A stretch of 64,000 nucleotides of DNA from Nitrospira sp. KM1 (GTDB taxonomy: Bacteria > Nitrospirota > Nitrospiria > Nitrospirales > Nitrospiraceae): positions 3,720,001 to 3,784,000 of the forward strand of contig NZ_AP022671.1 of NCBI RefSeq assembly GCF_011405515.1, written 5' to 3'. Every line of letters begins with the position of its first letter. The first letter of the stretch is position 1. The notes below the pieces were generated by a model. It was not told where the DNA came from. It was given only the letters and a program-made list of their open reading frames with translations, and searched no databases. A program made the translations under genes and the position numbers. Below are positions 1-20,011 of this stretch, one piece after another.

Positions 1-1735
1 AATCGTTGATCGTATGGACTCCCGGCGGCATGTCGGAGCTGCCGGTCGCGACGGCGTTGACCATCTTCACCAGATCCCTCGCCACGGCTCCGGGAGGATT
101 CAGCCCGTCGTTCGCCGCTTCCTGAGGCGACAGTTTGCGCAATCGCAAGCGCGGCATGTCCTCGCGAGTCCTCGGGGTGGGCAGGCAGGGAAGTGCCGAT
201 AGGCTGGTCGAGGCCGCATCGCGTGCGGTCAATGCGTCGAGACCGAACTTCTCCTCCAGCGTCTTCATCAGCGTGGTCGCATCCAGCGGCGTACTGAACA
301 CTGTGCCCTTGGGAATCCAGGGGGAAATCAGAATTGTGGGGATGCGCTGTCCCAGCCGGTTGAACGGGAAATTATCCTGATCGGCGTACCCGTCGCCAGG
401 CGGCACCGCCGTCGGGGGCGGCACGTGGTCATAGCAGGTTCCGCCTTCATCGAACGTGATGATGAACAGGGTATTGAGCCAGTTGCTCCCATTCGGTGAA
501 TTCGAATTGCGGATCGCCTGGTAGATGTCATTGACGAGGATCTCACCGCGCTTCACGGCCGGTGCGCCGTAGTCCGGATGGTAGCTGTTCGTCTCCAGAA
601 GAAAACGCGGCTGGATAAACGTATAGTCCGGCAGGGTGCCGTTCTCCACGTCGTCGTAGAACGAGGTCATGTCTTTGAAGTAGGGCGCGGCATCTGGAAA
701 GTCGCCCAATGTCGGATAGTGCAACAGCCGCGTCAGCGGCACGATATCGAAGCCGTCATAATAGATGGTCCAGGTATGGTTGGCGTCGGTCAGCGACTGA
801 AAGATCACAGGCGCCGTATTCTCGAACGGCCAGCGTATAGACGGCGTATTGATGACGAATCCCGATGACGAAGCGGCGTGGAAAAAGGCACGATTGGTAT
901 AGGTCTGGCTGGGCACGGCGCAATGCCAGTTGTCGCATACCCCATAGTTCTGAGCCAGTTGACTGATCGCCGGGACGATGCTCGGCGGGTACATCTGCAT
1001 GATGGTCGAATATTCCTCGTAGGTTCCGGCCTTTCCCATCGAAAGCAGACTCCAATAAAACGACGTGATGAACCCGGTCATCGGAGGCGGAAAGAACGCG
1101 CCCTGGTCGGGCACATTGTACGGCGTGGCATAGTCTGCCTCCGTCTTGGCAAACTGGTTGGTCAGCGGATTGAACGCGTTGTAGAGCGCCACGTTGACCG
1201 AGCCGTACTGCTCGGCCGGATCCACAACTGGGTTTAACAGGCCGGTCGCCTTGGACACGGGGATCGTCCCTTGGCCGGATCCCGGCGCATAGGGCGGGAT
1301 CGGATTGGACAAATTCTTCGTTGCGACGCCGTCGAAGGGCTGACCCTGCGGGCTCACGTCTTTCGGATACAGATAGCCCAATAAGTTATCCAGCGAGCGG
1401 TTTTCCAATTGCAGGACGACGACATGCTTGAAGGATTGCATCAAGTTGGCCGGCGCTGGCGGCGTGCCGCCGGTGAACACCGGATCCGGTCCGAAGAAGC
1501 GCGACGGGTTGGGGATCTCGGTGGGCGGAAGTTCACCGGGAGCGGTCAGGTCGGCCGGGTCTGGTTCACCTGGAAACAGAGTTGTCGAGGTCGATGAGGG
1601 TGTCGATGAGGCCGGTGGTGGGCTGGAGTCGTCCTTGCTGCAGGCCGCGAGCGCTGCGGCCATTGCCAGGCTGGCTTTCAGGAACGACCGGCGGCCCAAT
1701 GTATTGTCGGTATTGTCGTCGTCGGAGTTGTCCAT
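1..1735 (-). CDS. Tat-exported phosphoesterase lipoprotein (phospholipase C/AcpA-like), 3' end outside window
   Basis: The reading frame is open from an ATG at 1735 to the window edge, so about 578 residues are visible and the C-terminus is missing. It starts MDNSDDDNTDNTLGRRSFLK, with a twin-arginine motif, then a hydrophobic stretch ending LAAC, so a Tat-exported lipoprotein is likely. An acidic/Ser-Thr-Pro linker follows. The mature part has HVVVLQLENRSLDNLLGYL and, further on, DEGGTCYDHVPPP; both are hallmark motifs of the PF04185 phosphoesterase family (phospholipase C, acid phosphatase AcpA). The expected role is periplasmic or surface phosphoester hydrolysis, for example phosphate scavenging. 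The exact substrate cannot be read from sequence. Confidence 0.85.
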   Translation of the reverse strand, partial: MDNSDDDNTDNTLGRRSFLKASLAMAAALAACSKDDSSPPPASSTPSSTSTTLFPGEPDPADLTAPGELPPTEIPNPSRFFGPDPVFTGGTPPAPANLMQSFKHVVVLQLENRSLDNLLGYLYPKDVSPQGQPFDGVATKNLSNPIPPYAPGSGQGTIPVSKATGLLNPVVDPAEQYGSVNVALYNAFNPLTNQFAKTEADYATPYNVPDQGAFFPPPMTGFITSFYWSLLSMGKAGTYEEYSTIMQMYPPSIVPAISQLAQNYGVCDNWHCAVPSQTYTNRAFFHAASSSGFVINTPSIRWPFENTAPVIFQSLTDANHTWTIYYDGFDIVPLTRLLHYPTLGDFPDAAPYFKDMTSFYDDVENGTLPDYTFIQPRFLLETNSYHPDYGAPAVKRGEILVNDIYQAIRNSNSPNGSNWLNTLFIITFDEGGTCYDHVPPPTAVPPGDGYADQDNFPFNRLGQRIPTILISPWIPKGTVFSTPLDATTLMKTLEEKFGLDALTARDAASTSLSALPCLPTPRTREDMPRLRLRKLSPQEAANDGLNPPGAVARDLVKMVNAVATGSSDMPPGVHTIND

Positions 1736-1987
1736 GGATCGGCGCTCCCCTCTGTGTGGCTCTCGGGCGTGAGGTGTGACGCGTATCCCAGATTCGTATT
1801 GCCCCACAGCGCGCCTCCCGAAGGGCAAAAACGGCAGGCACAATAGCCACCATTCAGATTTGAAGTCAATGGCCGGGGCGGGGTTGCTGGCTAGGGGAAT
1901 GTTTGAGGATCAGGGAGAGTCGACGTATAGGGCAGTCAGTAAGAGGAAGGATTGTATTTGTCGTCTACACATTGCGGAGTGATGAAC

Positions 1988-2281
1988 ATGGGAAAGAAAC
2001 AATCAGGATCATCAACGCGCGGCAAGCGAGCCGTCGTGAGCGCGAAGCATATTCCGGACTCTAAGATCGATTTCTCAGATATGCCTGAACTGACGGACGC
2101 ACAGTTACGTCGCATGCGAAGAGTTGGAAGACCGACAAGTGGTCTGGCCAAACAATTGATTGCCATTCGGTTGTCGCCGCGTCTTTTAGAGCGGCTTCGA
2201 AAAATGGCGGCCAAGCAGGGGAAGCCATATCAGACACTCATACACGATTTGTTGGAACGAGCGGCCTCGCACGCCGCCTAG
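1988..2281 (+). CDS. BrnA/CopG-like ribbon-helix-helix antitoxin
   Basis: A basic 97-residue protein. The C-terminal part (IAIRLSPRLLERLRKMAAKQ followed by GKPYQTLIHDLLERA) is a ribbon-helix-helix DNA-binding fold of the BrnA/CopG antitoxin type. The middle holds the FSDMPELTDAQLRR segment common in BrnA-like proteins. GGAG at 1976-1979 sits at proper distance from the ATG at 1988; the ATG at 1982 lies too close to it. No BrnT-type toxin is found directly upstream or downstream, so it may be an orphan antitoxin or a stand-alone regulator. A REP-like repeat begins right after the stop codon. Confidence 0.7.
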   Translation: MGKKQSGSSTRGKRAVVSAKHIPDSKIDFSDMPELTDAQLRRMRRVGRPTSGLAKQLIAIRLSPRLLERLRKMAAKQGKPYQTLIHDLLERAASHAA

Positions 2282-2318
2282 AGGGACTGGCTCCGGCGCA
2301 GTCGGTGCCTGTCCCTGT
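2282..2318. repeat. REP-like repeat family B, copy 1
   Basis: The stretch GGGACTGGCTCCGGCGCAGT continues into CGGTGCCTGTCCC. It contains GACTG...CAGTC and an outer GGGAC...GTCCC pairing, so it can fold as a nested hairpin. Related copies lie at 6364-6403 and 8192-8222. It abuts the stop codon of the antitoxin gene. Confidence 0.6.
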
Positions 2319-2418
2319 CTTGCGTGCAGATTCGAAGTCAATGGCTGATGCGGATTCCTGACTAGGAAGAAATATGCGATTACCCAGCTTGTGCTGTGCT
2401 CTACCAGGAGGTCCAGGC

Positions 2419-2702
2419 ATGAAGGATACGTCGCGCGACATGGAGGAGCGGTACCAGACCTTGCTGATGCAGCGCACCGGCGAAGAGCGCCTCATCGCCT
2501 CATAATGGGATGCTCCATGCGAGACACCGCACGCGCGCTTGTGGAAGCATCTCTGCGTGAGCAAGATCCGCAGGTCACAATCGAAAACCTGCGAAAGGGC
2601 GTATTCCTTCGTTTTTACGGACACGAATTCGCCCCGGACACGTGTGCCAAGATTTTCGCCGCCATCGAACAAGCAGCCAATGCAGTCCCATCCGGCCGTT
2701 AA
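2419..2702 (+). pseudogene. Conserved hypothetical broken by an 8-bp tandem duplication
   Basis: The first part, from ATG 2419, reads MKDTSRDMEERYQTLLMQRT and GEERLI, then hits a stop at once. The second part, from ATG 2505, reads MGCSMRDTARALVEASLREQ to the stop at 2702 and includes LFLRFYGH-like residues (VFLRFYGHEF). The octamer CGCCTCAT occurs twice in tandem (2488-2495 and 2496-2503). Removing one copy restores a continuous frame ...EERLIMGCSMRD.... From memory, intact homologues carry this uninterrupted ERLxMGCSM junction and usually sit near toxin-antitoxin-like or nucleotidyltransferase genes. The function is unknown. The second half could still be translated from its own ATG. Confidence 0.7.
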
Positions 2703-2964
2703 AACGCACAACATCGTCCATTGTCTTCGGTGCCTTCCAGCATCCAAAAAGATACATTTACAGCCGAACTGCTCGTAAGATTACCGGCAATTGCCTGAAA
2801 GATTCTTTCCTTCTTTCTTTTTTGCTCAGACCCTCCTTCCGAATGATTGCATTCCGAACAATGGATGGGTGACCCTGTCCGCTCATTGCCGGCGCGCATC
2901 GGCTGATCTGGTTTCTCGTAGGGATGACCATGCGTCACGATGAGGTCTGAACCACTCTGACTCC

Positions 2965-3957
2965 ATGCCACGAAACGATCAGGTGACCAGACAGTGGTAT
3001 CTGCTCAGGCTCCTTGAATCGCCAGGGGGCGTCACGCTCGAAGACATCGTCAACCGCCTGCCGGCCGACTATCTGCGGCATCCACGAACCGTCCGGCGCG
3101 ATCTCGAAGCGCTCGAAGCGGCAGGCTTTCCTCTCGTGAACGAACGGGGCGACGGCCGGGTCCGCTGGCGGTTGATGGACGGGTTTCGCCAGGCTCCCTC
3201 GCTGTCGTTCTCACCGACCGAACTCATGGCGCTGGTCATCAGCCGCTCTCTGCTCAGGCCGCTGGCCGGCACGCAGATTCAAACGGCGCTGGAATCCGCA
3301 ATGGCCAAGGCCTCGCGTCTGCTGCCGGCCGCCTCGTTGGACTATGTTGACCATATACAGAATGTCTTTGCGGTTGGATTAGGGCCGCACAAGATGTACC
3401 GGCAGCATCGGGAGACCATCGATAAGCTCACCCGGGCGATCGAAAGTCATCGTACGGTTCAGGTCCGGTACTTCTCCGCCTCACGCGTGCGTATGACGCG
3501 GCGGGAGATCGATCCTTATCGGCTCTGGTACGCATCGGGTGGGCTGTATCTGGTTGGATACTGCCACCTGCGCAAAGAGCCGCGCATGTTTGCCGTCGAA
3601 CGCATGCGCGCGGTGGCGGCGACAGACCATCCCTATCAAATGCCGCTGGGGTTCGACCTCGATGCGTTCATTCAGGATTCACTGACCGTCATGCGGGGGC
3701 CTCGCATCACCGTGGAACTGCTGTTCGACCGTGCTACCGCGGTGTGGGTCAAGGACCGGACGTGGCATCCCAGCCAGACGACCAAACCGCTCAAAGACGG
3801 CCGGCTGCGGATGACGCTGACGGTGGCTGACACGCGCGAGCTATTGGGATGGATCTTGAGCTTCGGCAGCGGTGTCCGGGTGCTGCGTCCCCCCTCACTC
3901 GCCGATGCGGTATCGTCGGAGGCGAAAAAGATCGCTCATCTTGCCCGGAGCAATTAA
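2965..3957 (+). CDS. WYL-domain transcriptional regulator
   Basis: A 330-residue protein. Residues 1-65 form a winged helix (VTRQWYLLRLLESPGGVTLE, then RTVRRDLEALEAAGFP as recognition helix), as in DeoR/YafY-type regulators. A WYL domain follows, with REIDPYRLWYASGGLYLVGY and the FAVERMRAV segment around residues 175-215, and then a WCX-like C-terminal part (LTVADTRELLGWILSFGSGV). Such proteins sense ligands, often nucleotide-like, and commonly control genome-defence or DNA-repair genes. It stands alone between a relic and a vapBC pair. No strong ribosome-binding site is visible before the ATG. Confidence 0.9.
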   Translation: MPRNDQVTRQWYLLRLLESPGGVTLEDIVNRLPADYLRHPRTVRRDLEALEAAGFPLVNERGDGRVRWRLMDGFRQAPSLSFSPTELMALVISRSLLRPLAGTQIQTALESAMAKASRLLPAASLDYVDHIQNVFAVGLGPHKMYRQHRETIDKLTRAIESHRTVQVRYFSASRVRMTRREIDPYRLWYASGGLYLVGYCHLRKEPRMFAVERMRAVAATDHPYQMPLGFDLDAFIQDSLTVMRGPRITVELLFDRATAVWVKDRTWHPSQTTKPLKDGRLRMTLTVADTRELLGWILSFGSGVRVLRPPSLADAVSSEAKKIAHLARSN

Positions 3958-4182
3958 AACTCGCGGAGGCGGCGGAAATACTACCGTCACGCAAGAAGCG
4001 AAAAACATTCTGCAACGGAAACCACTGAGTGGTTACATCTGTCTGGTTGGCACTCGTCTGTCCTCGACTCTGCATACATACAACCATTCCGTTCACCGGC
4101 CGAGACGAACTTCGATCTTGCGAGAAATCGAAAGCCGTAGTACAGTCCTGTCATACAACAATATTAGTAGTGAAACCGCATC

Positions 4183-4446
4183 ATGCCGCTAACAGTACGA
4201 GTTGACGTCAAAACGGAACGGTTGATTCAACGACTCGCCAGGAAGCGGGGGAGGACGAAATCGGAAGTGATACGAGATGCGATCGGGGTGTTTGCGAAGC
4301 AAGTTGAGGCACAAGATGAGCGGGAGCGTCCCTATGAAAAAGCACGCGATTTGATCGGAAGCGTGCACGGGGGCCCTTCCGATTTATCCTCCCACACCGG
4401 GAAGACATTTCGCCTAATGCTCTCCAATAGCCACCGAACAGCCTGA
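4183..4446 (+). CDS. VapB-type ribbon-helix-helix antitoxin
   Basis: An 87-residue protein starting MPLTVRVDVKTERLIQRLAR, followed by KRGRTKSEVIRDAIGVF. This is a typical ribbon-helix-helix DNA-binding head, with a C-terminal tail that would bind and inhibit the toxin. The stop codon is 2 nt before the ATG of the PIN toxin, so the two form one operon. The domain order (DNA-binding first, toxin-binding tail second) and the spacing are those of a type II antitoxin. No palindromic operator was recognised in the 200 bp upstream. Confidence 0.85.
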   Translation: MPLTVRVDVKTERLIQRLARKRGRTKSEVIRDAIGVFAKQVEAQDERERPYEKARDLIGSVHGGPSDLSSHTGKTFRLMLSNSHRTA

Positions 4447-4448
4447 CG

Positions 4449-4856
4449 ATGGTCTTGATAGATGCAGGACCGCTCATTGCCTTGATTCACAAAGATGACA
4501 GGCATCACGAGCGCTGTGTTGAGGCCCTGCGATCGGTCAGTGAACCGTTAGGTACTGTGTGGCCGGCGTTCACCGAAGCAATGTATCTGTTGAGCTTTTC
4601 ATGGAGAGCACAGGAAGCGCTTTGGGAGATGCTCGAACGAGGTGTGATCGTGCTCCTTGCTCTTGAACTCCAAGAGGTCTCAAGGATGAGGGAGCTGATG
4701 AAAAAGTACAAAGATCTTCCGATGGATCTAGCCGACGCAGCTCTCGTGGCGGTGGCCGAACGCGAGCGGATTAGGCAGATCTTCACCCTTGACCGTCGAG
4801 ACTTCGAAGTCTATAGACCTGCTCGGCTTGGGCGATTCATCCTCCTTCCTCAGTAA
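4449..4856 (+). CDS. VapC-type PIN-domain toxin RNase
   Basis: A 135-residue, full-length PIN domain. The acidic active-site residues are visible in order: Asp in MVLIDAGPLI, Glu in AFTEAMYLL, Asp in DLPMDLADAALVAVAE and Asp in FTLDRRDFEVY. VapC enzymes are Mg2+-dependent endoribonucleases, usually acting on tRNA or rRNA. With the antitoxin gene 2 nt upstream this is an intact type II module, the only VapBC in the window that appears fully functional. The target RNA is not predictable. Confidence 0.9.
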   Translation: MVLIDAGPLIALIHKDDRHHERCVEALRSVSEPLGTVWPAFTEAMYLLSFSWRAQEALWEMLERGVIVLLALELQEVSRMRELMKKYKDLPMDLADAALVAVAERERIRQIFTLDRRDFEVYRPARLGRFILLPQ

Positions 4857-4932
4857 GTCGTCCCCAGCGATCTATTCCAGCGATTCGACCCTGCCGCTGA
4901 AAGAACACGGAGCGTTCGACTCTTTGAGACGA

Positions 4933-4949
4933 GTGACCTCCGATGTCAC
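4933..4949. promoter_or_regulatory. Palindromic regulatory element upstream of the VWA gene
   Basis: GTGACCTCCGATGTCAC is an inverted repeat (GTGAC/GTCAC, 7-nt spacer) located 51 nt before the VWA start codon. Almost the same 17-mer, with one base changed, recurs at 8293-8309 in front of a truncated copy of the NPFG-protein gene start. That conservation supports an operator or activator site; the binding protein is unknown. Confidence 0.5.
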
Positions 4950-5000
4950 AGTTCACCTCTATGATGGCCGCCGCTGAACCACAAACCTGGAGGTGATCGT

Positions 5001-5687
5001 ATGCATGACAACCGGAGTGGGAATACCGATTCCGTCCCGCAGCCATTGTACGTCACGCTGATTCTCGACGAAACCGGATCGATGCAATCCTGCAAGGGCG
5101 CGGCGATCGCCGGCTTCAACCAATATCTCGCGAAACTCCGGCAGGAGCCTGCCAACACCCGTGTCACCCTGACACTCTTCAACTCCGGCAAAACCGAGAT
5201 CCGGTATCAGGGCGCTGATCCGTCCGCCGTGTCCGATCTGGACGTCGAAACGTACCGGCCTTGCGATACGACCCCGCTCTACGATGCCATCGGCCGCACG
5301 CTCACCGCCGAGAGGCCGGCGGCTCCCGCCGAAACCAAGAAACTGTGCGTCATCCTGACGGATGGATTGGAAAACGCCTCGAAGGAATACCGGCACAAAC
5401 AGGTGTTCGACATGATCAAGGACTTCGAACAGCAGGGCTGGACGTTTCTCTACCTGGGCGCCGATCACGACGTGTGGGTAGCCGGTGAATCGCTCGGGAT
5501 CGCCGGCGATAATACCGTGTCGTTCTGTAGAAGACAGGTCGACGGCACATTCAACCGGCTGTCCGAACGGATTGCCGCGTTTCGGCGCGAACCGGCCGGG
5601 AAAAAGGAGCCGCTGCCGGCCGAAGAGCAGGCTCCGCCTGTTCCGAACCCGCCGCAGGGAGACGGCACCTCTTCAACCTTGAGCTGA
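5001..5687 (+). CDS. VWA-domain protein
   Basis: A 228-residue protein with no signal peptide, so probably cytoplasmic. The von Willebrand factor A fold starts at residue 15: YVTLILDETGSM carries the MIDAS motif (Asp23, Thr25, Ser27), with the MIDAS threonine in CDTTPLYDAIG and the aspartate in CVILTDGLENAS. The C-terminal 40 residues are Pro/Glu-rich and probably disordered. A near-perfect GGAGGTGATC ribosome-binding site precedes the ATG. The gene lies 18 nt upstream of the secreted NPFG-repeat protein gene and is probably co-transcribed with it. VWA proteins mediate metal-dependent protein contacts; the partner here is unknown. Confidence 0.88.
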   Translation: MHDNRSGNTDSVPQPLYVTLILDETGSMQSCKGAAIAGFNQYLAKLRQEPANTRVTLTLFNSGKTEIRYQGADPSAVSDLDVETYRPCDTTPLYDAIGRTLTAERPAAPAETKKLCVILTDGLENASKEYRHKQVFDMIKDFEQQGWTFLYLGADHDVWVAGESLGIAGDNTVSFCRRQVDGTFNRLSERIAAFRREPAGKKEPLPAEEQAPPVPNPPQGDGTSSTLS

Positions 5688-5705
5688 TGAAGATGGAGGA
5701 ACGCC

Positions 5706-6137
5706 ATGCCAACGATCGGTCTCTTGTTGCTCGCTCTGCTCGCCGCTCCGGACGTGTTACATGCGGAAGATCTCGGCTATCTCAGTGCCAACCCGTTTGG
5801 CATCGATTCAACGTCCAACCAGTTTGGCAAGGGCAGCCCGTTCGCGCCGGACGGCATCAACAATCCGTTCAGCCCGTACGGCAGTCCGTTCAGCAACCAG
5901 TCCGCGACCAGTCCGTTCGCCACCGACGCACCCAGACTGTACGATCAAGAGGGCAACTACCGGGGCAAGCTCAGCGCGAATCCCTTCGATCCGGATTCGA
6001 CCAGCAATCAGTTCGGCCGTTACGGCTCGCCCTATTCACCGGATTCCATGAACAACAAGTTCGGCGCAGGCAGTCCCTATCGATACGACTCGCCGAACAA
6101 TCCGTATGGGGCGGGATGGAAAATAGAGGGTAAGTGA
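5706..6137 (+). CDS. Secreted NPFG/SPY-repeat protein
   Basis: A 143-residue protein with a cleavable signal peptide (MPTIGLLLLALLAAPDVLHA). The mature part is a low-complexity array of short units: LSANPFGIDSTSNQFG, GSPFAPDGINNPFSPYGSPF, LSANPFDPDSTSNQFG, YGSPYSPDSMNNKFGAGSPY. The unit has the form (S/N)PF/Y-x-x-D-S-x-x-N-x-(F/Y)G. Similar short-repeat secreted proteins of unknown function are known in many Gram-negative bacteria. GGAGG precedes the start. It follows the VWA gene closely, and its last seven codons lie inside a 215-bp direct repeat. Confidence 0.8.
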   Translation: MPTIGLLLLALLAAPDVLHAEDLGYLSANPFGIDSTSNQFGKGSPFAPDGINNPFSPYGSPFSNQSATSPFATDAPRLYDQEGNYRGKLSANPFDPDSTSNQFGRYGSPYSPDSMNNKFGAGSPYRYDSPNNPYGAGWKIEGK

Positions 6138-6328
6138 TCGAAAGCGCCGTGCTCCGTCGCCTCTCGCAGCACCCCTTCCACGGCGGTCCGAGCGGAAGCC
6201 TTCTGGAATTCCCTCGGTCACGGTTGTCTCAACCGTGTTCCTCGGTCAGTTCCAGCTTTCCTTCTCAGGCCGCCGGGCGGGGCCCCACTGCTTTGGCGAA
6301 AGTCGCACAGGGCTTTCGATCACTTGCT
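6114..6328. repeat. 215-bp direct repeat, copy A
   Basis: This segment begins in the last seven codons of the NPFG-protein gene (GWKIEGK) and runs into non-coding DNA. It matches 7213-7427 at an offset of 1099 bp with two visible mismatches (a C/T near 6147 and a C/T near 6276). The two copies bracket a VapB gene and a VapC pseudogene. Confidence 0.95.
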
Positions 6329-6363
6329 GGCGGGTAGTGGAAGACTCCAGCTCGCAAAGCGGT

Positions 6364-6403
6364 AGGGGGACTGACTCCGATGCAGTCGGTGCCTGTCCCC
6401 CCT
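6364..6403. repeat. REP-like repeat family B, copy 2
   Basis: GGGGACTGACTCCGATGCAG continues into TCGGTGCCTGTCCCCC. It is closely similar to the copy at 2282-2318, with the same outer GGGAC/GTCCC and inner GACTG/CAGTC pairings. It lies between the first direct repeat and the VapC pseudogene. Confidence 0.6.
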
Positions 6404-6515
6404 TAAAGATCCAGATTTCCTATGTTGATTCCGGTGTGTTGAAGATCATTACACTCTATGAGCCCGACCCAGGGAAGATAAACTGCACGATATGGAGTCG
6501 TGTGCCGTCTTGAAA

Positions 6516-6902
6516 TCACCGTGCAGTCGGTTGGTAGAAACGAATACCCGGTATTTTTTTGAAGTGCATGTCGAGGCTATACACTAAATGCCTTTGCTCC
6601 AGAGCCAGCGCTGCAATGATGAGGTCGGACACGGCAATGTCACTCCTTTGCGGAGCAACTGAGCGGAAAGGTCGCCGGTCTGCTCCCAAATAGACCGGTT
6701 GATCTCCCGATACGGTAAAGCCGAAAGGGCTTCGGAAAGCACCGCCCGTTCAGAGGATGTCCGACATCCCTGCAGTAGCTCAGCCAAGACGACCCCAACG
6801 AGTACGACGTCATCGGCATCGATCAGTAGGTCCAGGGCGGCCTTTTCAGGTGAATCGGGGGTTAAAGAAGGGAATCCAGACGGAGGTATCAGCGATGACC
6901 AT
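6516..6902 (-). pseudogene. VapC-type PIN toxin with two frameshifts
   Basis: Three successive reading frames together give a normal PIN toxin. From ATG 6902 the N-terminus is MVIADTSVWIPFFN; after a shift at a run of Cs it continues PDSPEKAALDLLIDADD to LLRKGVTLP; after a second shift it reads LSDLIIAALALEQRHLVYSL and ends ...IPGIRFYQPTAR at 6516. The key acidic residues (Asp in IADTSVW, Glu in VLAELLQG, Asp in LSDLI) are spread over all three frames, so no active toxin can be made without frameshifting. It partly overlaps the intact antitoxin gene just upstream. Confidence 0.85.
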
Positions 6903-7128
6903 GTCGGCGGCGTTTGAGGGAGGTTTGATGACGGACTTCGACTTGCTCGAGTTGCTTCCAATCGAGATCGAGATGGATTTTCCCGCTCAGGTTTTTCAAC
7001 TGATCGAGTTTTTTTCTCCGAATCAGTTCGTGAGCGGCAAGATGGATGGCTTCAGTCTTGGTCTTGGCCGAAGTCGCTTTCATCAGCTGCTCGATCAAGT
7101 GCTGGTTGAGATCCAACGTGGTACGCAT
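6889..7128 (-). CDS. VapB-type antitoxin (MRTTLDL family)
   Basis: A 79-residue protein from ATG 7128: MRTTLDLNQHLIEQLMKATS, then AKTKTEAIHLAAHELIRRKK. This is the usual VapB ribbon-helix-helix head followed by a short toxin-binding tail. An alternative ATG at 7146 would add six residues. It overlaps the start of the VapC pseudogene by 14 bp, the normal arrangement of such operons. A perfect 17-bp palindrome at 7141-7157 lies across the start region, so autoregulation is expected. The antitoxin has kept its frame while its toxin has not. Confidence 0.85.
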   Translation of the reverse strand: MRTTLDLNQHLIEQLMKATSAKTKTEAIHLAAHELIRRKKLDQLKNLSGKIHLDLDWKQLEQVEVRHQTSLKRRRHGHR

Positions 7129-7140
7129 GCTACCAATGGT

Positions 7141-7157
7141 ATGCATAGTCTATGCAT
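7141..7157. promoter_or_regulatory. VapB operator palindrome
   Basis: ATGCATAGTCTATGCAT is a perfect inverted repeat of 8-bp arms around a single central base, located just upstream of the VapB start. Type II antitoxins of the ribbon-helix-helix class bind such sites to repress their own operon; that role is inferred here. Confidence 0.65.
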
Positions 7158-7212
7158 ATGTCAATTTCATCACCATTCAACACTACCAATCGCCGGCAAT
7201 CCATAGAGGACA

Positions 7213-7427
7213 GGATGGAAAATAGAGGGTAAGTGATCGAAAGCGTCGTGCTCCGTCGCCTCTCGCAGCACCCCTTCCACGGCGGTCCGAGCGGAAGCCT
7301 TCTGGAATTCCCTCGGTCACGGTTGTCTCAACCGTGTTCCTCGGTCAGTTCCAGCTTTCCTTCTCAGGTCGCCGGGCGGGGCCCCACTGCTTTGGCGAAA
7401 GTCGCACAGGGCTTTCGATCACTTGCT
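7213..7427. repeat. 215-bp direct repeat, copy B
   Basis: Second copy of 6114-6328. It repeats the last codons of the NPFG-protein gene without the gene itself, which shows that copy A is the resident sequence and copy B arose with the insertion or duplication that brought in the VapBC segment. Confidence 0.95.
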
Positions 7428-7600
7428 CATAAGCGGTGGAGGATTAACTGAGCGATGAAGAGCACCCCATGTCGCGGAATACGCTCAGCATCGGTGGATG
7501 CCTCGCTCCTCCGGTCGAACTCGCCAAGCGCGAAGGCATCAGGTGAATCGGGGGCGATTAAAGAAGGAACCAGACAGAGGGAGCAGCGATGACCCCATGG
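7428..7600 (-). pseudogene. Decayed N-terminal relic of a second VapC-type toxin
   Basis: The DNA at about 7541-7600 resembles the 5' end of the VapC pseudogene at 6850-6902 (AGGTGAATCGGGGGC..TTAAAGAAGG pattern). Read on the minus strand it gives VIAAPSVW and PDSPDAF pieces in different frames, against VIADTSVW and PDSPEKA in the neighbour. The rest does not continue as a PIN domain. It is a short relic only; the far part (7428-7540) has no recognised origin. Confidence 0.45.
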
Positions 7601-7737
7601 GCACTCCTCAGTCCTCAAAAACCTCAATAAATAAACCATTCCTGCACTTTCGAATTTGCTTTCGTTACAGTCAACACGATATGTCTGAGCTCAGGAAGTC
7701 GTTTGGGTAATGGATAGCGCGGATCAGGGCGTGCAGA

Positions 7738-8071
7738 ATGAATATTCGTTTCTATGTTGACCTCGAAACAGACTTGCCTCACGTCTATGGTCATCAAGTT
7801 GACGAACGGGAGGTAGAGAATGTATTGAGACACCCAGGAGAGGACCGTCCAGGGAGAGAAGGCGCGCGGGTAGCGATCGGACAGACGAGGGCGGGGCTGG
7901 GATGAAGCGAGAGTCCGCCGAGTTTTGGCTCACTATGAAGAGCAGTCCGACCAAGAAGCAGTGGCAGAAGATGAGGCCGCCATTGAAGACAAGACCCAAA
8001 CGGTCATGGAGATTCCCACCGATCTGGTTCCCGCCGTGCGAGCACTAATCGCGAAACGACGAGCAAGTTGA
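7738..8071 (+). pseudogene. Toxin-antitoxin pair fused by deletion (DUF4258-like toxin N-terminus + antitoxin C-terminus)
   Basis: From ATG 7738 the frame reads MNIRFYVDLETDLPHVYGHQ and ...GREGARVAIGQTRAG, the conserved start of small DUF4258-like toxins, then stops at once. In another frame, from about 7895, GWDEARVRRVLAHYEEQSD and ...VMEIPTDLVPAVRALIAK run to a stop at 8071, as in the C-terminus of the partner antitoxin. The toxin C-terminus and the antitoxin N-terminus are missing, and the junction lies in the G-rich stretch around 7890-7905. Both genes are therefore dead, although the antitoxin tail still has a long open frame. Confidence 0.7.
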
Positions 8072-8191
8072 TTCCCCAACCTATTAGTCATTGACTGCTG
8101 CTGCAACTAAAAGGCTGAGGACCGCTCAGGCCATACGTCAATAGCTCTTACTCTGGTATTCTCAGCACTCCGCACTGACTTGGATGGAGGG

Positions 8192-8222
8192 TAGGGGACT
8201 GGCTCCGGTGCCTGCCTCGCGC
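8192..8222. repeat. REP-like repeat family B, truncated copy 3
   Basis: GGGGACTGGCTCCGGTGCCT matches the left and right parts of the copies at 2282 and 6364, but the internal GCAGTC segment is deleted. It sits after the fused toxin-antitoxin relic. Confidence 0.45.
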
Positions 8223-8292
8223 CTTCATCATCCGAAAATCCCCCCAGCTCGCAACCCCTAACCCGATACATTCATCCAGAGCGTGTCCCACT

Positions 8293-8309
8293 GTGACCTC
8301 AGATGTCAC
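8293..8309. promoter_or_regulatory. Second copy of the GTGAC-N7-GTCAC palindrome
   Basis: GTGACCTCAGATGTCAC differs from the element at 4933-4949 by one base. Here the symmetry extends to ACTGTGAC/GTCACAGT. It lies 59 nt before the ATG of a truncated secreted-protein gene, nearly the same distance as in the VWA operon. Confidence 0.5.
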
Positions 8310-8368
8310 AGTGCTCTGCCACAATGCGCTACATGATCATGGAGTCCGGCATGTGGAAGGAGGCGGCC

Positions 8369-8455
8369 ATGTGGAAAAAAATAGTGATGCTCCTGGCAGT
8401 GCTCTCGATGAGCCCCGCCGTAGCCGTGGCGGAAGATCTCGGCAGTCTCGGGTGA
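8369..8455 (+). pseudogene. Truncated start of an NPFG-type secreted protein gene
   Basis: From ATG 8369, with AAGGAGG at good distance upstream, the frame encodes 28 residues: a signal peptide (MWKKIVMLLAVLSMSPAVAV) followed by AEDLGSLG and a stop. The intact protein at 5706 has the same transition, AEDLGYLSANPFG. This is therefore a remnant holding promoter, signal peptide and first mature residues only; the repeat region is absent. The short peptide could still be made. Confidence 0.55.
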
Positions 8456-8644
8456 AAACGGGCATTGCATCACTGATCGTTCAAAGACCATGAGCTCAAG
8501 ATGACAGACGTTCTTGCTTTAGAAGGATTGCTTTCTTTAGGGGGAATCGGTATGCGTTTCAGCTGCGCTCATGTGCGTTGCCCTATCGCAACGAGGCAAA
8601 ACGCCGGACGCTAAGCTGGGCTATTCCACAAGGGTAAAGAAACC

Positions 8645-11600
8645 ATGCACATGACTGACAAGACAGCAGTTTTTGCCGCAACGGATCTGTCGAACTTTCT
8701 GGCGTGCCGGCATCGTAGTGCATTGGACCTGGCTGCTGCCATGGGAAAGCTTAAGGCGCCCGCCGCATTGCTCGATATGGCACTCACGCTGCTGCGGGAG
8801 AAGGGCGCTGCACACGAGCGAGCCTACGTCGAACATCTGCGCGCGCAAGGACTCACCGTAGTCGAGATACCAGTTGATGCGGCACCTGACGAGCGCGTCT
8901 CGCAAACCGTCGTAGCGCTCAAATCTGGAGCGGACGTCATCTGCCAGGGAGCGTTTGCCGGCCAGGGCTGGATTGGCTATGCCGATGTCCTGCGCAAGGA
9001 GCCTTGTCCACCTGGAAGGCGATCGAGTCTCGGCGACTTCTACTATGAGCCCTATGATACGAAGTTGGCGCGTGAGACGAGAGGAGGGACGATCCTGCAG
9101 CTTGCACTCTATGCCGACCTGCTGGGCGAGATCCAAGGCGTCGCGCCCGAGCGTTTCTTCGTCGTCACCCCCGGGAAGGATTTTATCGTCCAGCCGTATC
9201 GTCTCGCGGACTATGCCGCGTATTTCCGCATGGTGCGCGCCCGGATGCTCAAGGTGTTGGGAAAAGGGCCCGATGTGCTCCTGACAGAGACCTACCCTGA
9301 TCCCGTGGAGCACTGTGATGTCTGTCGCTGGTGGGAGCGCTGCAACAAGCGACGCCGGGATGACGATCACCTTTCCTTCATCGCCGGCGTGGGCCTCTCT
9401 CAGCGCACCGAATTGGTATCGCGCGGCGTGACGACGCTGGCGGCCGCAGCCGTGATGCCCGTTCCCGTCACATTCAAGCCGTCCCGAGGCACAGCTGACA
9501 CGTACAACCGGATTGTCGAGCAGGCGCAGGTGCAGCTTGAGCAGAGGACAAAGAAGGAACCGATCTTCAAGGTGCTGCCGGTCGTCCCCGCCCAGGGGCT
9601 TTGCCGCCTGCCCGAACCATCCCCCGGCGATCTCTTTCTCGACCTGGAGGGAGCACGCTTTGTCCGTGAGGGCGGGCATGAGTATCTGTTTGGGCTGGGT
9701 CACGTCACCGCTACCGGAGACTTTGAGTATCGGCGCTGGTGGGCCATGGATACCATGGAGGAACAAGCGGCCTTTGAAGCATTGATCGATGCGATCCAGC
9801 ACGCACGGACAGTAGACCCCCATCTCCACATCTATCACTTTGCGCCGTACGAGCCGACGGCTCTCAAGCGTCTCGCAGGCCGTTATGCGATCAAACAGGA
9901 CGCGCTCGATGACCTGTTGCGGGGTGAATGCTTTGTCGATCTGTATGCGGCCGTTCGGCAGGCAGTACGCGCCGGTGTCGAGAGCTATTCGATCAAAGAG
10001 CTCGAGCAGTACTTCGGATACCAGCGAGTGATCGCCTTGCGGGACGCGGCAACGCACCGCATCGCGATCGAGATCGCGTTAGAAATTGGCGACCCGGACA
10101 CTATTTCAGAAGAAACGCGGCAGATCGTCGAAGAATATAACCGCGATGACGTCGTCTCCACATGGCGGTTGCGAGAGTGGTTGGAAGGTCTGCGGACGCG
10201 TCAGATCGAAGACGGGGTAGAGGTGCTGCGGCCAACGACCAAAGAGGCCGAAAAAAAGGACCCAGACGATCGCACCGCACGCGCAGAGGCCCTTCGCGCC
10301 GAATTGCTTGACGGCCTCTCACCGGAGGCAGCGACCGACCCCCACCATCCCGACCATCCCCGATGGCTGCTGGCTTTTCTGATCGACTGGCACCATCGGG
10401 AAGAAAAAGCAAACTGGTGGGAATACTTCCGACTAAAGGACCTTCCGGAAGAAGACTTGATCGACGAACCAAAAGCGCTTACCGGTCTTCAGCATGTCGT
10501 CGAGGTCGGACCCTTTCTGGGGAAGAAGGGGAAGCCGACCGGGAGTATCATCCACCGGTATCGGTTCCCGCTGCAGGAGGTGGAACTTACTGAAGGCGAT
10601 ACGCTGAAGCGGCTCGACGGTCAGGCCTTTGGCGAGGTACTGAAGCTCGACCGAACGGCGCTGACCATAGACGTGAAGCGCGGCCGTAACTCAGGCAAGG
10701 ACCATCCCCGGTCGGTGTTTTCGAATGATGTGTTCGGTATGGAACGGCAGCAAGAGTCCGTGATGCGGTTTGCGGCGAATCTGCATGCGGCGGGCTATCA
10801 GCAGCTCTCCGCCGGCGCAGACCTTCTTTACCGGCGTCCTCCGCGACTCCGCAAAGGCGAGTTCAATCCTCGCCTGAACGAATCCGCAGCGGACTTCGCA
10901 GTCCGAATCGTCACCGAGCTGGATCGAACAACGCTGGCCATTCAAGGGCCGCCCGGGGCTGGGAAGACGTATGCGGGCGCACGCATGATTCGTACAGCGG
11001 TAGGGGCCGGTATGCGGGTCGGCGTGACGGCGAACAGTCACAAAGTCATCCAGAATTTACTCGCCGAGATCGAGAAGCAAGGCCGAAACGAAGGGAAGGA
11101 ACTCCGGCTTGGCCACAAAGTGGACGACGAGGGGAACCTTGCTGATGGTGTGACGCCGTTTAAGGATAACGGATCAGCCATTGCCGCCATCACCAGTCGG
11201 GAGATCGAAGTGCTGGGCGGAACGGCCTGGCTCTGGGCGAGCGAGCATGCGACGCAGTCGGTAGACTTGCTGTTTGTCGATGAAGCCGGACAATTCTCGC
11301 TGGCGAACACGCTGGCAGTAGCATCAGCAGCGATGAGTGTCGTCGTGTTCGGCGATCCGCAGCAATTGGATCAGCCGCAGAAGGCGAGCCATCCGGAGGG
11401 TGTCGGGGTCTCGGCACTGGCTCACGTCCTCGGTGGGAGCGAGACGATGCCGACTGATCGAGGCATTTTCATGCCGGAAACCTGGCGCCTAGCGCCGGCG
11501 GTCTGCAGCTTCACCTCGGAGTTGTTCTACGCCGGCAAGTTAAAACCCCTTCCATCTCTGGCCGTTCAACGGCTTACCGGGACAGCGGTCTTCGATGGTG

Positions 11601-12082
11601 CGGGGCTTTGGTGGATCGCCGTGGCGCACGACGGCAATCGCAGCTCGTCCGATGAGGAAGTGAGGGCCGTCGCGGAACTGGTGGATCAACTGATAGGCGC
11701 GAGGTGGGTGGATCAGGATGGGAAGACGTGCCCTTTTATCGCGGCTGACTTAAGGGTCGTGGCGCCGTACAACGCCCAGGTGAACCGTCTCGCTGCTCGT
11801 CTCCAGCCACGGGGCGTTCCGGTCGGGACTGTGGACAAGTTCCAAGGGCAAACCTGTGCGGCAGTCATCTACTCGATGGCCACTTCGTCTCCCGAGGATG
11901 CGCCTCGCGGGATGGAATTTCTCTATTCTCTCAACCGGCTTAATGTGGCTACGTCGCGTGGACGCTGTGCCACGTTCATCGTCGCAAGCCCCGCACTTCT
12001 TGACCCTCAATGCTGGACACCAAGACAGATGCAGCTGGCGAACGGCCTGTGCCGGTTTGTAGAAATGGCGAGGCGGCCTTAG
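8645..12082 (+). CDS. TM0106-type RecB-like nuclease fused to RNase H-like exonuclease and SF1 helicase
   Basis: A 1145-residue multidomain protein. The N-terminal RecB/Cas4-like nuclease region has Cys21 (FLACRHR) and a cysteine triad at about 224-233 (CDVCRWWERC), the layout of an Fe-S-stabilised PD-(D/E)XK fold. About residues 333-510 form a YprB-type RNase H-like exonuclease (LFLDLEGARF, HIYHFAPYEPTALKRL, YNRDDVVSTWRLREWL). The C-terminal SF1 helicase has Walker A GPPGAGKTY at about 768, VDEAGQ at about 878, FGDPQQLDQPQ, and late motifs VGTVDKFQGQ and LNRLNVATSRG. This order is that of the TM0106 family. It probably unwinds and degrades DNA; a repair or defence role is inferred from family and island context. 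It appears monocistronic. Confidence 0.9.
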   Translation: MHMTDKTAVFAATDLSNFLACRHRSALDLAAAMGKLKAPAALLDMALTLLREKGAAHERAYVEHLRAQGLTVVEIPVDAAPDERVSQTVVALKSGADVICQGAFAGQGWIGYADVLRKEPCPPGRRSSLGDFYYEPYDTKLARETRGGTILQLALYADLLGEIQGVAPERFFVVTPGKDFIVQPYRLADYAAYFRMVRARMLKVLGKGPDVLLTETYPDPVEHCDVCRWWERCNKRRRDDDHLSFIAGVGLSQRTELVSRGVTTLAAAAVMPVPVTFKPSRGTADTYNRIVEQAQVQLEQRTKKEPIFKVLPVVPAQGLCRLPEPSPGDLFLDLEGARFVREGGHEYLFGLGHVTATGDFEYRRWWAMDTMEEQAAFEALIDAIQHARTVDPHLHIYHFAPYEPTALKRLAGRYAIKQDALDDLLRGECFVDLYAAVRQAVRAGVESYSIKELEQYFGYQRVIALRDAATHRIAIEIALEIGDPDTISEETRQIVEEYNRDDVVSTWRLREWLEGLRTRQIEDGVEVLRPTTKEAEKKDPDDRTARAEALRAELLDGLSPEAATDPHHPDHPRWLLAFLIDWHHREEKANWWEYFRLKDLPEEDLIDEPKALTGLQHVVEVGPFLGKKGKPTGSIIHRYRFPLQEVELTEGDTLKRLDGQAFGEVLKLDRTALTIDVKRGRNSGKDHPRSVFSNDVFGMERQQESVMRFAANLHAAGYQQLSAGADLLYRRPPRLRKGEFNPRLNESAADFAVRIVTELDRTTLAIQGPPGAGKTYAGARMIRTAVGAGMRVGVTANSHKVIQNLLAEIEKQGRNEGKELRLGHKVDDEGNLADGVTPFKDNGSAIAAITSREIEVLGGTAWLWASEHATQSVDLLFVDEAGQFSLANTLAVASAAMSVVVFGDPQQLDQPQKASHPEGVGVSALAHVLGGSETMPTDRGIFMPETWRLAPAVCSFTSELFYAGKLKPLPSLAVQRLTGTAVFDGAGLWWIAVAHDGNRSSSDEEVRAVAELVDQLIGARWVDQDGKTCPFIAADLRVVAPYNAQVNRLAARLQPRGVPVGTVDKFQGQTCAAVIYSMATSSPEDAPRGMEFLYSLNRLNVATSRGRCATFIVASPALLDPQCWTPRQMQLANGLCRFVEMARRP

Positions 12083-12084
12083 CG

Positions 12085-12135
12085 CGGAGAAAGGTGTCAG
12101 AGCGCGGAGAAAGGTGTCAGGAACCATTCCTGACT
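12085..12135. repeat. REP family A, left-end type, tandem head
   Basis: The unit GCGCGGAGAAAGGTGTCAG occurs twice in tandem and runs into GTCAGGAACCATTCCTGAC, an 8-bp perfect hairpin with a 3-nt loop. The same sequence is found at 18614-18676 and 19786-19826. Confidence 0.8.
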
Positions 12136-12140
12136 TGCCC

Positions 12141-12325
12141 CGGCCCAGATGGAGTGGGTGAACGCCGATGAGCACCACGAGCAGGTCGAAGCGCTTCGCC
12201 GCAGTCGTGAAGGGTCTACCGTTTTGAAGCGAGCCATGGACGAAGCAGATGGTGACGAGATGGAATCTCGGCATGACGCTGCGAGAGAGGGGACGGTCAC
12301 CGAAAGACTAAACAATGGTTCCTGA
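12141..12325 (+). pseudogene. 3' remnant of a RAYT transposase
   Basis: About 180 bp match the 3' end of the intact RAYT gene at 20505-20683 (TGGGTGAACGCCGATGAGCA and onward to the stop), with small indels that break the frame. It is framed by the REP unit at 12085-12135 and an inverted half-REP at 12319-12345. The whole looks like an internally deleted, MITE-like derivative of the RAYT element. Confidence 0.75.
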
Positions 12326-12345
12326 CACCTTTTTGTCTTCACCTT
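12319..12345. repeat. REP family A, inverted right-end type
   Basis: GGTTCCTGACACCTTTTTGT is the reverse complement of the left-end core (AAAGGTGTCAGGAACC). It is followed by a tandem ACCTTTTTGTCTTC duplication and then directly by the restriction-gene relic. Confidence 0.7.
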
Positions 12346-12353
12346 TTTGTCTT

Positions 12354-12683
12354 CACGACCGGGATTCGCAGAAGTGGTTCCGGCCTGCCTCAGGCCAATT
12401 TCAAATCACATATAAGCATGGCGCTTCGCACCATGACTACCAACCCGATTTTGTCGCTGAGACAACAGACTGTATCTACATGCTCGAACCCAAAGCCAAG
12501 AACGAGATGACGTCACCCGATGTGTTGGCGAAGAAAGAGGCCGCTGTCCTCTGGTGCAGCCGCGCCACCGCTCACGCTCTGAGCAACGGCGGCAAGCCAT
12601 GGAAGTATGTTCTCATACCCCACGACGTGATCGCGGAGAATATGACGCTGACAGGGCTGGTGAAGCAATATTCAATCACATGA
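12354..12683 (+). pseudogene. C-terminal fragment of a type III restriction enzyme Res subunit
   Basis: About 110 residues in one frame: DSQKWFRPASGQFQITYK, DYQPDFVAETTDCIYMLEPK, KNEMTSPDVLAKKEAAVLWC, and the ending GGKPWKYVLIPHDVIAENMT. This matches the C-terminal endonuclease end of Res-type subunits (the PDF...LEPK arrangement is the PD-(D/E)XK core). The helicase domain and the Mod partner are absent. The fragment starts right at the REP/RAYT remnant, so the element marks the breakpoint. It cannot act as a restriction enzyme on its own. Confidence 0.7.
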
Positions 12684-12863
12684 ATTAAATGGATTTAGAA
12701 TCAGAATGACTGTACCGGCAACGGATGGATTCAATCCCCCGCATATTGCTGTCTCGAGATCGTCGATGGACAGCGAAACTTTAAAGTATAGACGAAGTGG
12801 GAACATAAGAATGGCAGCTCCTTTCTATCTCGTCGGATCTGGTATAAGAAAAAGCACAATTAC

Positions 12864-13922: not shown

Positions 13923-13964
13923 CAGTGAAAATCATTTGAAACAATCATTTGTTTGTCTGGGCTC

Positions 13965-14060
13965 AGGTCTTGCGGTCAGCATTATCCTGAGTAGGCTTCT
14001 GCGCCATGGCCAGACTGCCTCGCATCGAATTCCCACGATCTTCTGCCGGGCATTGCCGTG
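13965..14060 (+). pseudogene. 5' relic of a Y1-type transposase element
   Basis: CTCAGGTCTTGCGGTCAGCA followed by ATGGCCAGACTGCCTCGCAT parallels the start of the element at 14346-14420 (TCAGGTCTTGCAATC... ATGGCCCGTCCACTACGGAT). Only the first dozen codons (MARLPRIEF) are recognisable; the rest is lost. Confidence 0.45.
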
Positions 14061-14394
14061 ACTCGTCACATGATAGACGGCCGCGCCGCCCGGTAATTCT
14101 AGAAATGGCACTTAGTTATCCGAGTAGATACACTGTTATATCTTTTCTGAAAAATACTGGTATTTCCTCTATAGGTCATACCTTTTTCCCGCCACCCCTC
14201 CTTTGGAATGATTGTTTTCGGATCTAAAGATCGGTAACTCTCTTTGCCAATTGCCTAAAGTTTAAAGTTGCCGGATAGGGTCATGAGAGGGCAGGGAGAC
14301 CTCTGAAGCAAGTCAAAAAACATCCAGAGGCTGGGAAGACCGCATTGGGGTCAGGTCTTGCAATCGTGCATTGTGAGCGGTACAGTCCCTCCCC

Positions 14395-15228: not shown

Positions 15229-15466
15229 TTGAAAACCTGACCGAAGAGACTTTTCCCGCTCTTGGTCATGTGTTTTGCCTTTCGTGGCAAGGCTGACTGT
15301 TATTCAAACCGGAGAAGATCCCAAGACGGTACTTTCCCGCTGCGAGTGGGGACATGACGATTACAGTCTGAAGATCGAAATTTGCCGAAGGCGCCAGCCC
15401 CACCAGGGCAGCAGGATCTAGGGTTGGAAGGCACGTGACCAGATTCAGATCGGAGTAGGGCCGTCC

Positions 15467-16016: not shown

Positions 16017-16044
16017 AGGGACACCTTTTCACCTTTCAGGAGTC

Positions 16045-16281: not shown

Positions 16282-16296
16282 CCCAGCCGATTCACC

Positions 16297-16626: not shown

Positions 16627-16906
16627 ACCTCCAGCCATCGTCCACAAGCTCTGCTGATCCGCTGTATTCCGTCGTCGCTCCAATCCCTCCCGCCACGCCT
16701 GCCACTGAACTCTGTCCCTCAGTGTTTCGTGAATCAGTGCATCCCAAAATCCTCATGCCAATGTATTCTGCCCAGTTGCGCCGGGCGATGGCGACGTTGA
16801 ATTTGGTGCCCACGATTCACGCTGTGGCTACCGTAAGCGCAAGCGGCGCAGTATGACGTCCGATCAGGCGATGGAGCGAAAACCGGAGATATCCTGCTTC
16901 CTCGGG

Positions 16907-18579: not shown

Positions 18580-18613
18580 AGAGCGCGGTTGCCTTCAAGT
18601 GGTACTGCCGATT

Positions 18614-18676
18614 TCGAGCGTGGAGAAAGGTGTCAGTGCGTGGAGAAAGGTGTCAGGAACCATTTCCTGACTTGAT
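18614..18676. repeat. REP family A, left-end type
   Basis: GCGTGGAGAAAGGTGTCAG appears twice in tandem and runs into the hairpin GTCAGGAACCATTTCCTGAC and then CTTGATGGGTGAAA. The copy at 19786 shares both hairpin and flank, so the homology exceeds 50 bp. No transposase follows. Confidence 0.8.
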
Positions 18677-18960
18677 GGGTGAAAGATAAAAACAGGTACG
18701 TGGAAATCGGAATGTTGTGATCTTCATCAGGAAGCCGATGGGGCATGTTCTTCAAGCTTTGATGGAAGTCCTGAAACAAATCGAAGAGAGGCTTCAATCA
18801 GGCACGCTTAAGCACAGTCATCTAGGCGGGAACTCTACACTTGGTTCAATGTCTGAATAACAGAGGTCGAATGCAACGGCGTGCTCCTCTCTCGATATCT
18901 CATCTCTAGGCGAGCAATAAGCTATCATGCTCTCGAAGCGATCAACCAGACGAACACTTC

Positions 18961-19233: not shown

Positions 19234-19494
19234 TCAGCGGTAGATTTCTCGGCGGTGACCCACCTTGACGAGAGTTACGATGCGAGCTTCGTCGTCGATG
19301 CCATAGATTATACGGTAGTCTCCTTGTCGAATACGGTACTGATCGTGCCCGGACAGTTTTTCGCAACCTTGAGGCCGTGGCGTGTCGGCAAGCCCTCGTA
19401 GGCGCTCTGTGATGCGCCGGAGGTCGGATTTGGGTATTGTTCGCAGCTCCCGTTCCGCCGACTTCTTGATCACAAGCTTATAAGAGTCCGTCAC
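19234..19494 (-). CDS. RelE/ParE-type toxin
   Basis: An 86-residue protein: MTDSYKLVIKKSAERELRTI, then LRGLADTPRPQGCEKLSGHD and QYRIRQGDYRIIYGIDDEAR. This is the complete RelE fold, with the typical basic C-terminal stretch (VKVGHRREIYR). RelE toxins cleave mRNA on the ribosome; ParE relatives poison gyrase. The Tyr/Arg pattern at the end (Arg-x2-Tyr) favours RelE-like RNase activity. The start overlaps the end of the antitoxin gene by 17 bp, so translation is coupled. Confidence 0.9.
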   Translation of the reverse strand: MTDSYKLVIKKSAERELRTIPKSDLRRITERLRGLADTPRPQGCEKLSGHDQYRIRQGDYRIIYGIDDEARIVTLVKVGHRREIYR

Positions 19495-19705
19495 GCTTGA
19501 GATCCTTTAGGACCTGTTCAAACGGACGGGTTGATTCCTTGCTGCGCTTGTCGAACGCGTCAAGATCGATTGCGTCTTCGCGGAGCGCCTCGATGACGGC
19601 GGCATTCACCAACTCCGAGACGGATCGGTCCGTCGTCGCGGACTTCACTTTCAGGGCTCGATACACCTTCGGTTGCAAGTACACCGTCATACGACTGTCC
19701 GCCAT
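19478..19705 (-). CDS. Ribbon-helix-helix antitoxin of the RelE pair
   Basis: A 75-residue protein: MADSRMTVYLQPKVYRALKV, then TDRSVSELVNAAVIEALRE as ribbon-helix-helix, followed by a toxin-binding tail (TRPFEQVLKDLKRDGLL). GGGGAGG precedes the ATG. It is the first gene of a two-gene operon with the RelE-type toxin, and the 32-bp palindrome 16 bp upstream is the expected operator. The module lies between two REP sequences that share sequence (18614 and 19786). Confidence 0.88.
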   Translation of the reverse strand: MADSRMTVYLQPKVYRALKVKSATTDRSVSELVNAAVIEALREDAIDLDAFDKRSKESTRPFEQVLKDLKRDGLL

Positions 19706-19785: not shown

Positions 19786-19826
19786 GCGCGGAGAAAGGTG
19801 TCAGGAACCATTTCCTGACTTGATGG
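19786..19826. repeat. REP family A, left end of the RAYT element
   Basis: GCGCGGAGAAAGGTGTCAGG leads into the hairpin GTCAGGAACCATTTCCTGAC. It lies about 190 bp before the RAYT start codon and is inverted relative to the half-REP at the gene's end, so the pair brackets the transposase gene. Confidence 0.8.
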
Positions 19827-20011
19827 TGGAAAATAAAACAAGTCCGGCCTGAGCCCATCGATGGATTTCGGAGTTCGGTGGTCAGCATAATGCTGGCATT
19901 CTCAAGACGTTCTGCGGGTCATCCTCTTCATTTGCCTTGACCCCCACCCCACATTCGGCGTACAAGCGCACGCACATTTGGTGAGTTGGTGCTGCTCGAA
20001 GGAGAGGCAGT

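Follow-up and report, generated by a model that had tools for sequence, protein, structure and literature searches.

The closest described systems are the restriction-modification units, for which insertion with a long target duplication of variable length has been proposed (Nobusato et al. 2000 Gene 259:99; Furuta et al. 2010 NAR 38:2428; see also PMC3874152, PMC3031569 and PMC2654758). Concerning toxin-antitoxin (TA) modules, a 2009 review describes the fixation of acquired TAs as not understood (PMC2654758), and no report of such an insertion for TA modules was found in the open-access papers searched. A first-pass annotation had presented the locus described here as a possible undescribed route of TA spread. 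The word "undescribed" is too strong, because insertion with long target duplication is already published for restriction-modification addiction units. The type II TA cargo would be the new part, the same kind of insertion being already described for restriction-modification units.

The locus is contained in the window, i.e. the whole stretch of 64,000 nucleotides analysed from the genome of Nitrospira sp. KM1. It displays three features of the restriction-modification type of insertion: repeats in the order of 100 bp, an addiction module as cargo, and neither transposase nor terminal inverted repeats. Its structure is probably explained by insertion of vapBC, with a long target duplication (~245 bp), into the 3' end of a secreted-protein gene and the adjoining hairpin element. 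The features are listed in Table 1.

Table 1. Features of the vapBC locus and of the second bracketed TA module in the window.
Feature	Position	Strand	Basis or remark
Host gene (secreted protein, NPF/NPY repeats), duplicated at its 3' end as the target	5706..6137	+	ORF, orthologues
Direct repeat copy A: last 53 bp of host gene and hairpin element	6084..6328	+	alignment, blastn
Hairpin element A, terminal inverted repeat AAGTGATCGAAAGC, dispersed Nitrospiraceae family	6131..6326	+	folding, homologues
Inserted segment, 855 bp	6329..7183	.	GC 0.52 vs 0.57 in flanks; no terminal inverted repeats
Short REP-like hairpin GGGGGACTGACTCC..GGTGCCTGTCCC, second site at 2279-2315	6363..6399	+	blastn
vapC pseudogene, reading frame broken near 6860 and 6632	6528..6905	-	ORFs, homologue comparison
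vapB antitoxin, homologous start MRTTLD a few codons in	6889..7146	-	ORF, Pfam
Operator-like palindrome TATGCATAGTCTATGCATA	7140..7158	.	sequence read directly
Direct repeat copy B: displaced, decayed gene tail and hairpin element	7184..7427	+	alignment, blastn
Hairpin element B	7230..7425	+	homologue search, covariance model
Degenerate 3' arm, another copy of the hairpin element family	7476..7534	+	
Second vapC 5' fragment, 56 bp, just outside copy B	7539..7594	-	84% to 6846-6900
Relic of a second secreted gene (N-terminal head) with operator-like palindrome	8290..8455	+	
Left copy of second TA bracket, 54 bp, 92.6%, contains RAYT-type REP	18638..18691	+	blastn
ParE toxin and ribbon-helix-helix antitoxin inside second bracket	19234..19705	-	
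Right copy of second TA bracket	19786..19838	+	blastn

Structure of the vapBC locus

The near-identical direct repeats of 215 bp claimed in the first-pass annotation are borne out by alignment: copies A (6114-6328) and B (7213-7427) differ by 2 mismatches in 215 bp, with a start-to-start spacing of 1099. A blastn self-comparison widened the match to 245 bp (6084-6328 / 7184-7427; 95.5%, E 3e-108), the homology being weaker at the outer edge that starts at 6084/7184, and the gene-tail part of the match is longer and more diverged than previously annotated. The repeat is composed of 53 bp from the 3' end of the secreted-protein gene, followed by a hairpin element of ~195 nt. The coordinates confirm that copy A starts in the last codons of this gene (stop codon at 6135-6137) and that copy B contains these codons without the gene body. 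Orthologues of the host gene were detected in the genomes G003, G005, G006 and G007. The repeat runs at least 17 identical and 53 homologous bp into the host gene, beyond the limit of the element, and its limits do not coincide with the element ends, as those of a composite element would. Since the host-gene tail lies outside the element family, as judged from those aligned copies that include their flanks, A and B are attributed to a duplication and not to two independent insertions of the element.

The two copies are 99% identical over the element and about 75% over the gene tail. One clean duplication alone, without later gene conversion or unequal decay, does not predict these values; the uneven divergence may have arisen by gene conversion, or because the displaced tail decayed. 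A diversity-generating retroelement was considered because 4 of the 5 tail differences are G to A. It is rejected on account of one differing site at which both copies lack adenine, and no sign of a reverse transcriptase was met in passing in the vicinity. Repeats as similar as these, at a distance of 1.1 kb, are open to misassembly, but an assembly artefact is very improbable: the genome is a single contig of 4,509,223 bp, the copies can be told apart by 2 positions and by their flanks on either side, and the pattern recurs in many independent assemblies.

The only genes of the insert (6329-7183) are vapB and a broken vapC, with no transposase or integrase. The terminal inverted repeats of the insert score under the shuffled 95% level, and no recognised integrase is found among the ORFs at 4000-10000. 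The antitoxin belongs to the family PF09957 in Pfam (E 5.7e-10; 39.4 bits for a cut-off of 23.4). VapC matches an intact PIN-domain homologue, its own PIN-domain toxin being not intact: by comparison with the intact homologue of 127 aa in the genome G029, residues 16-91 and 92-126 are encoded in frames that differ from each other and from that of the N-terminus, and thus two frameshifts have occurred relative to this homologue. The annotated vapB gene with its operator palindrome and the loss of the toxin by two frameshifts in vapC are both confirmed.

Several relics are located beyond copy B. The one at 8290-8455 is joined to the sequence upstream of a helicase gene. Between element B and this gene (window 7738-8071) there are also relics resembling a small toxin/antitoxin pair, which look like additions to the TA-rich character of the site. 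The vapC 5' fragment (84%), the head of a second secreted gene at 8290-8455 and the decayed gene-tail part of copy B could all be remains of a local tandem duplication, in which an old copy of the unit secreted gene, element and vapBC would have decayed to the tail, element B and the vapC fragment. Such an origin is nonetheless unlikely: the parts have diverged unequally, with identities of 99% for the element, 84% for the vapC fragment and about 75% for the gene tail; the head relic encodes a different signal peptide, and it lies after the tail instead of before it; and the unrelated gene-edge brackets at many other TA loci (see below) would be left unexplained. Given the vapC fragment and the second secreted-gene head, a tandem duplication may have contributed to the locus.

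In the insertion that we favour, the vapBC addiction module would have entered the 3' end of the secreted gene and the adjoining hairpin element, duplicating ~245 bp of target; one target copy would keep the host gene whole, the other being a displaced, non-functional tail. As long as the toxin worked, recombination between the copies would delete the module and expose the cell to the toxin, and the structure would thereby be kept. The later breakage of vapC by two frameshifts would leave the locus free for deletion. One possible route would be the capture of DNA at a break with distant staggered nicks, then filled in; in another, a circle with a homologous gene end would integrate by a single crossover. 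We infer both the route of insertion and the retention by addiction, the latter from the biology of TA modules.

The genome G005, from the same genus, displays the order VWA gene, secreted gene, small ORF and helicase start, with no vapBC and no element. The same-genus relatives are ~70-75% identical in DNA, and G005 is too diverged to display an exact one-copy site; no close strain with a one-copy site at the exact window locus was found. Homologues of vapBC in G029, G018 and G007 are localized near a WYL-regulator gene, which lies upstream in the window, indicating a variable and TA-rich neighbourhood.

The hairpin element and the second bracket of the window

The 195-nt hairpin folds much better than shuffled sequences (z -4.5 as DNA, -5.7 as RNA), and compensatory changes are observed in 30 of the 45 consensus pairs in the aligned homologues. 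With a covariance model, the hairpin was found in 43 of 60 Nitrospiraceae genomes, at 1-26 copies each, while blastn detected none in 24 genomes from the other families of the order. Searched against Rfam, positions 1-20000 of the window gave no hit with E values as high as 1; the hairpin thus corresponds to no catalogued RNA, and no transposase was identified for it. Conserved motifs in the loop are CTTCTGGAATTCCC ... GGTCAGTTCCAGCTTTCC, and a genome has few copies. The members of the family are often located just past the stop codons of genes, and the family is apparently uncatalogued.

Hairpin elements occur within 1.5 kb of 7 of 90 TA loci and of 0 of 60 control loci. The loci with an element near a TA include L175, L178, L132, L145 and L310. 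The loci L183 and L184, from two genera, share a common vapBC-element unit at ~70% identity.

The tiles of the window contain two brackets in all, A/B and 18638/19786, and both enclose a TA. At the second one, a Y1_Tnp (RAYT) gene (20012-20683) adjoins the ParE/RHH module, which is bracketed by two RAYT-type REP repeats. Five such REP sites lie in the window, and the 1.2 Mb examined elsewhere in the genome contains none. These REPs around the ParE module, the proximity of hairpin elements to TA loci counted above, and the locus L388 from Elusimicrobia, where a palindromic repeat brackets VapBC exactly, could point to a composite movement, i.e. two transposase-dependent copies of a palindromic element that bracket a TA and move it as a unit. 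Against this, the duplicated DNA takes in host-gene sequence outside the element, none of the 12 loci of the window's VapC family carries the element, the element is missing from most brackets, and no transposase was identified for it. A composite movement is consequently quite improbable, and the element is rejected as TA vehicle for the window's VapC family. The first-pass annotation had suggested a search for other loci where the 215 bp flank cargo, and these 12 loci indicate that it is not a TA-specific repeat. The hairpin element is part of the target in the window, not the vehicle.

Direct-repeat brackets at other toxin-antitoxin loci

The left and right 1.5-kb flanks of each locus were compared on the same strand, a match with E<1e-10 being considered as strong. 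The surveyed loci are the best-scoring hits and not a random sample, and a few TA neighbourhoods are possibly present in two sets. Among the Nitrospiraceae genomes, 19 of the 89 sampled TA loci are bracketed, versus 1 of 59 loci of non-TA genes (Fisher p 2.6e-4). At this threshold, the proportion reaches 11/29 for ParE loci (p 1e-5 for ParE alone by the same test) and 8/60 for PhdYefM and VapB loci taken together; the controls gave 1/30 for GNAT loci, 0/29 for response-regulator loci and 1/300 for cross-pairs. In 18 of 19 inserts, terminal inverted repeats do not exceed the 95% level of shuffled sequences. The GC content of the inserts is below that of the flanks in 17 of 19 and equal in one, with the reservation that TA or intergenic DNA may be GC-poor anyway. 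The duplication measures 42-388 bp at the loci beyond the window. The loci L179, L308, L131 and L126 were set aside upon inspection as paralogues, in part in tandem, or dispersed repeats, and do not figure among the gene-edge cases below.

An independent stretch of 1.2 Mb of the KM1 genome contains 23 repeat pairs, mostly paralogous genes, and no TA was found in those inspected. The few high-identity, non-paralogue brackets without TA in this stretch indicate that the footprint is not exclusive to TA. The region G000:C1:656767-659447 has direct repeats of 98 bp (93%) around a helicase-like gene and two small genes, and is possibly a non-TA case of the same footprint.

In many brackets, the repeated sequence is one end of a housekeeping gene (truA, trpS, purQ, purL, aat), and a displaced piece of that gene is found on the far side of the TA. 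The genome G020 displays the order truA, element, Phd/ParE-type TA, 38-bp truA tail and element, where a block of 388 bp is duplicated at 84%. In G009, truA is followed by a TA homologous to that of G020 and then by a truA tail; the repeat is a perfect 42 bp, and the element is absent. The element is thus not needed, and the constant parts are the TA and the duplicated gene edge. Most brackets have no hairpin element. Further gene edges include those of trpS (L162), of a gene of 365 aa (L146) and of purQ in two genera (L292, L316), and 5' gene ends are represented by purL (L313) and aat (L296). The purL gene of L313 (1791-3260, genome G064) contains an apparent intein, with matches to LAGLIDADG_3 and to an intein splicing domain, and directly adjoins the TA insertion that duplicated its 5' end. 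At L173, a gene edge brackets a vapBC of the window's own family; elsewhere this VapC family has other brackets (L173/L356, L362).

The first-pass annotation had taken an empty single-copy site in close relatives as a sign of insertion. None was found for the window locus, where G005 only lacks the cassette and the element, but such sites exist for the locus L146. In the genome G032, a YoeB/ParE-type toxin and its antitoxin are enclosed at this locus by a duplication of 106 bp (98%); in G072 and G090, the flanks of G032 overlap on one repeat copy without TA, and the coordinates of G097 agree. In G014, the TA occupies the corresponding position, and no second repeat copy can be recognised. As judged from these sequences, an insertion in G032 or a precise excision in the relatives would both fit.

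The gene-edge brackets also bear on the model of the first-pass annotation, according to which a circle or plasmid carrying the TA and a homologous gene end would be integrated by a single RecA crossover (Campbell-type integration). This event would yield exactly the structure observed. The truA site is used in two genera with related TAs, and the purQ 3' end in two genera; the identity at truA in G009 falls abruptly from the perfect 42 bp to diverged codons, and the inserts have a lower GC content. However, donors with a TA beside the same gene end are required, and no donor or circular form was found. In purQ of L292 and truA of G009, the displaced copy has the native-looking C-terminus and the copy attached to the gene ends in new codons; at L292, the attached C-terminus resembles new sequence and not a diverged purQ tail. 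We regard Campbell-type integration as rather doubtful. Of the earlier proposal, the insertion with duplication of the flank is supported by G005 and by the other TA loci. Recombination of a circular or repeat-flanked cassette at homologous DNA is just one of the possible routes, and the data agree as well with another route to a long target duplication.

The scan of 84,980 species genomes with a VapC alignment recovered 80 loci. Outside Nitrospira, 7 of 64 loci are bracketed at E<1e-5, versus 0 of 300 cross-pairs, and they are distributed in several phyla, including Elusimicrobia (130 bp, 95%), Chloroflexi, Deltaproteobacteria and the cultured Marinomonas arctica (62 bp). The footprint at many unrelated TA pairs suggests a transposase-free settling in chromosomes by duplication of 40-390 bp of the site. 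We tentatively extend this proposal to type II TA across bacteria, which may commonly colonise chromosomes without transposase by duplicating 40-390 bp; owing to the duplication, such insertions could be harmless at the ends of essential genes, and they could be persistent as long as RecA excision is lethal, i.e. until the toxin mutates.

Comparison with known systems

These observations bear on the spread of small chromosomal TA modules in the absence of a mobile element. The displaced gene end beyond the module represents a footprint for finding and dating recent TA insertions and for reconstructing their target, and it offers a direct test of addiction, i.e. the frequency of excision between the repeats with a live or a dead toxin. 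TA and restriction-modification units would also be linked, as addiction modules, by one common mode of insertion.

The module itself resembles its VapBC homologues (PF09957 for VapB, PF01850 PIN for VapC) by gene order, operator palindrome and VapC sequence, and differs from them by the two frameshifts that break its toxin. As in the islands of tRNA genes, where integrative elements restore gene 3' ends, a full gene, a cargo and a displaced gene 3' end are found; however, the TA loci have no integrase, use both 3' and 5' gene ends, and their repeat length depends on the locus. The likeness to MITE, REP and RAYT repeats consists of a long hairpin of a dispersed family in the target, with a RAYT gene and REPs elsewhere in the window, whereas for the family of ~195 nt neither an Rfam match nor a transposase was found, and most TA brackets lack it. 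Integron cassettes with attC hairpins also carry TA cargo beside a hairpin; contrary to them, no integrase is seen beside the locus, the repeat has a host-gene tail and most brackets lack a hairpin. With the restriction-modification units, the locus shares a two-gene addiction module, the lack of transposase, a variable target duplication (order of 100 bp) and an insertion inferred from genome comparison. It differs from them by its cargo, which here is type II TA (VapBC, or ParE/RelE with Phd/YefM or other antitoxins), and by duplications that, in a sample composed mainly of Nitrospiraceae, often lie over the edge of a housekeeping gene.
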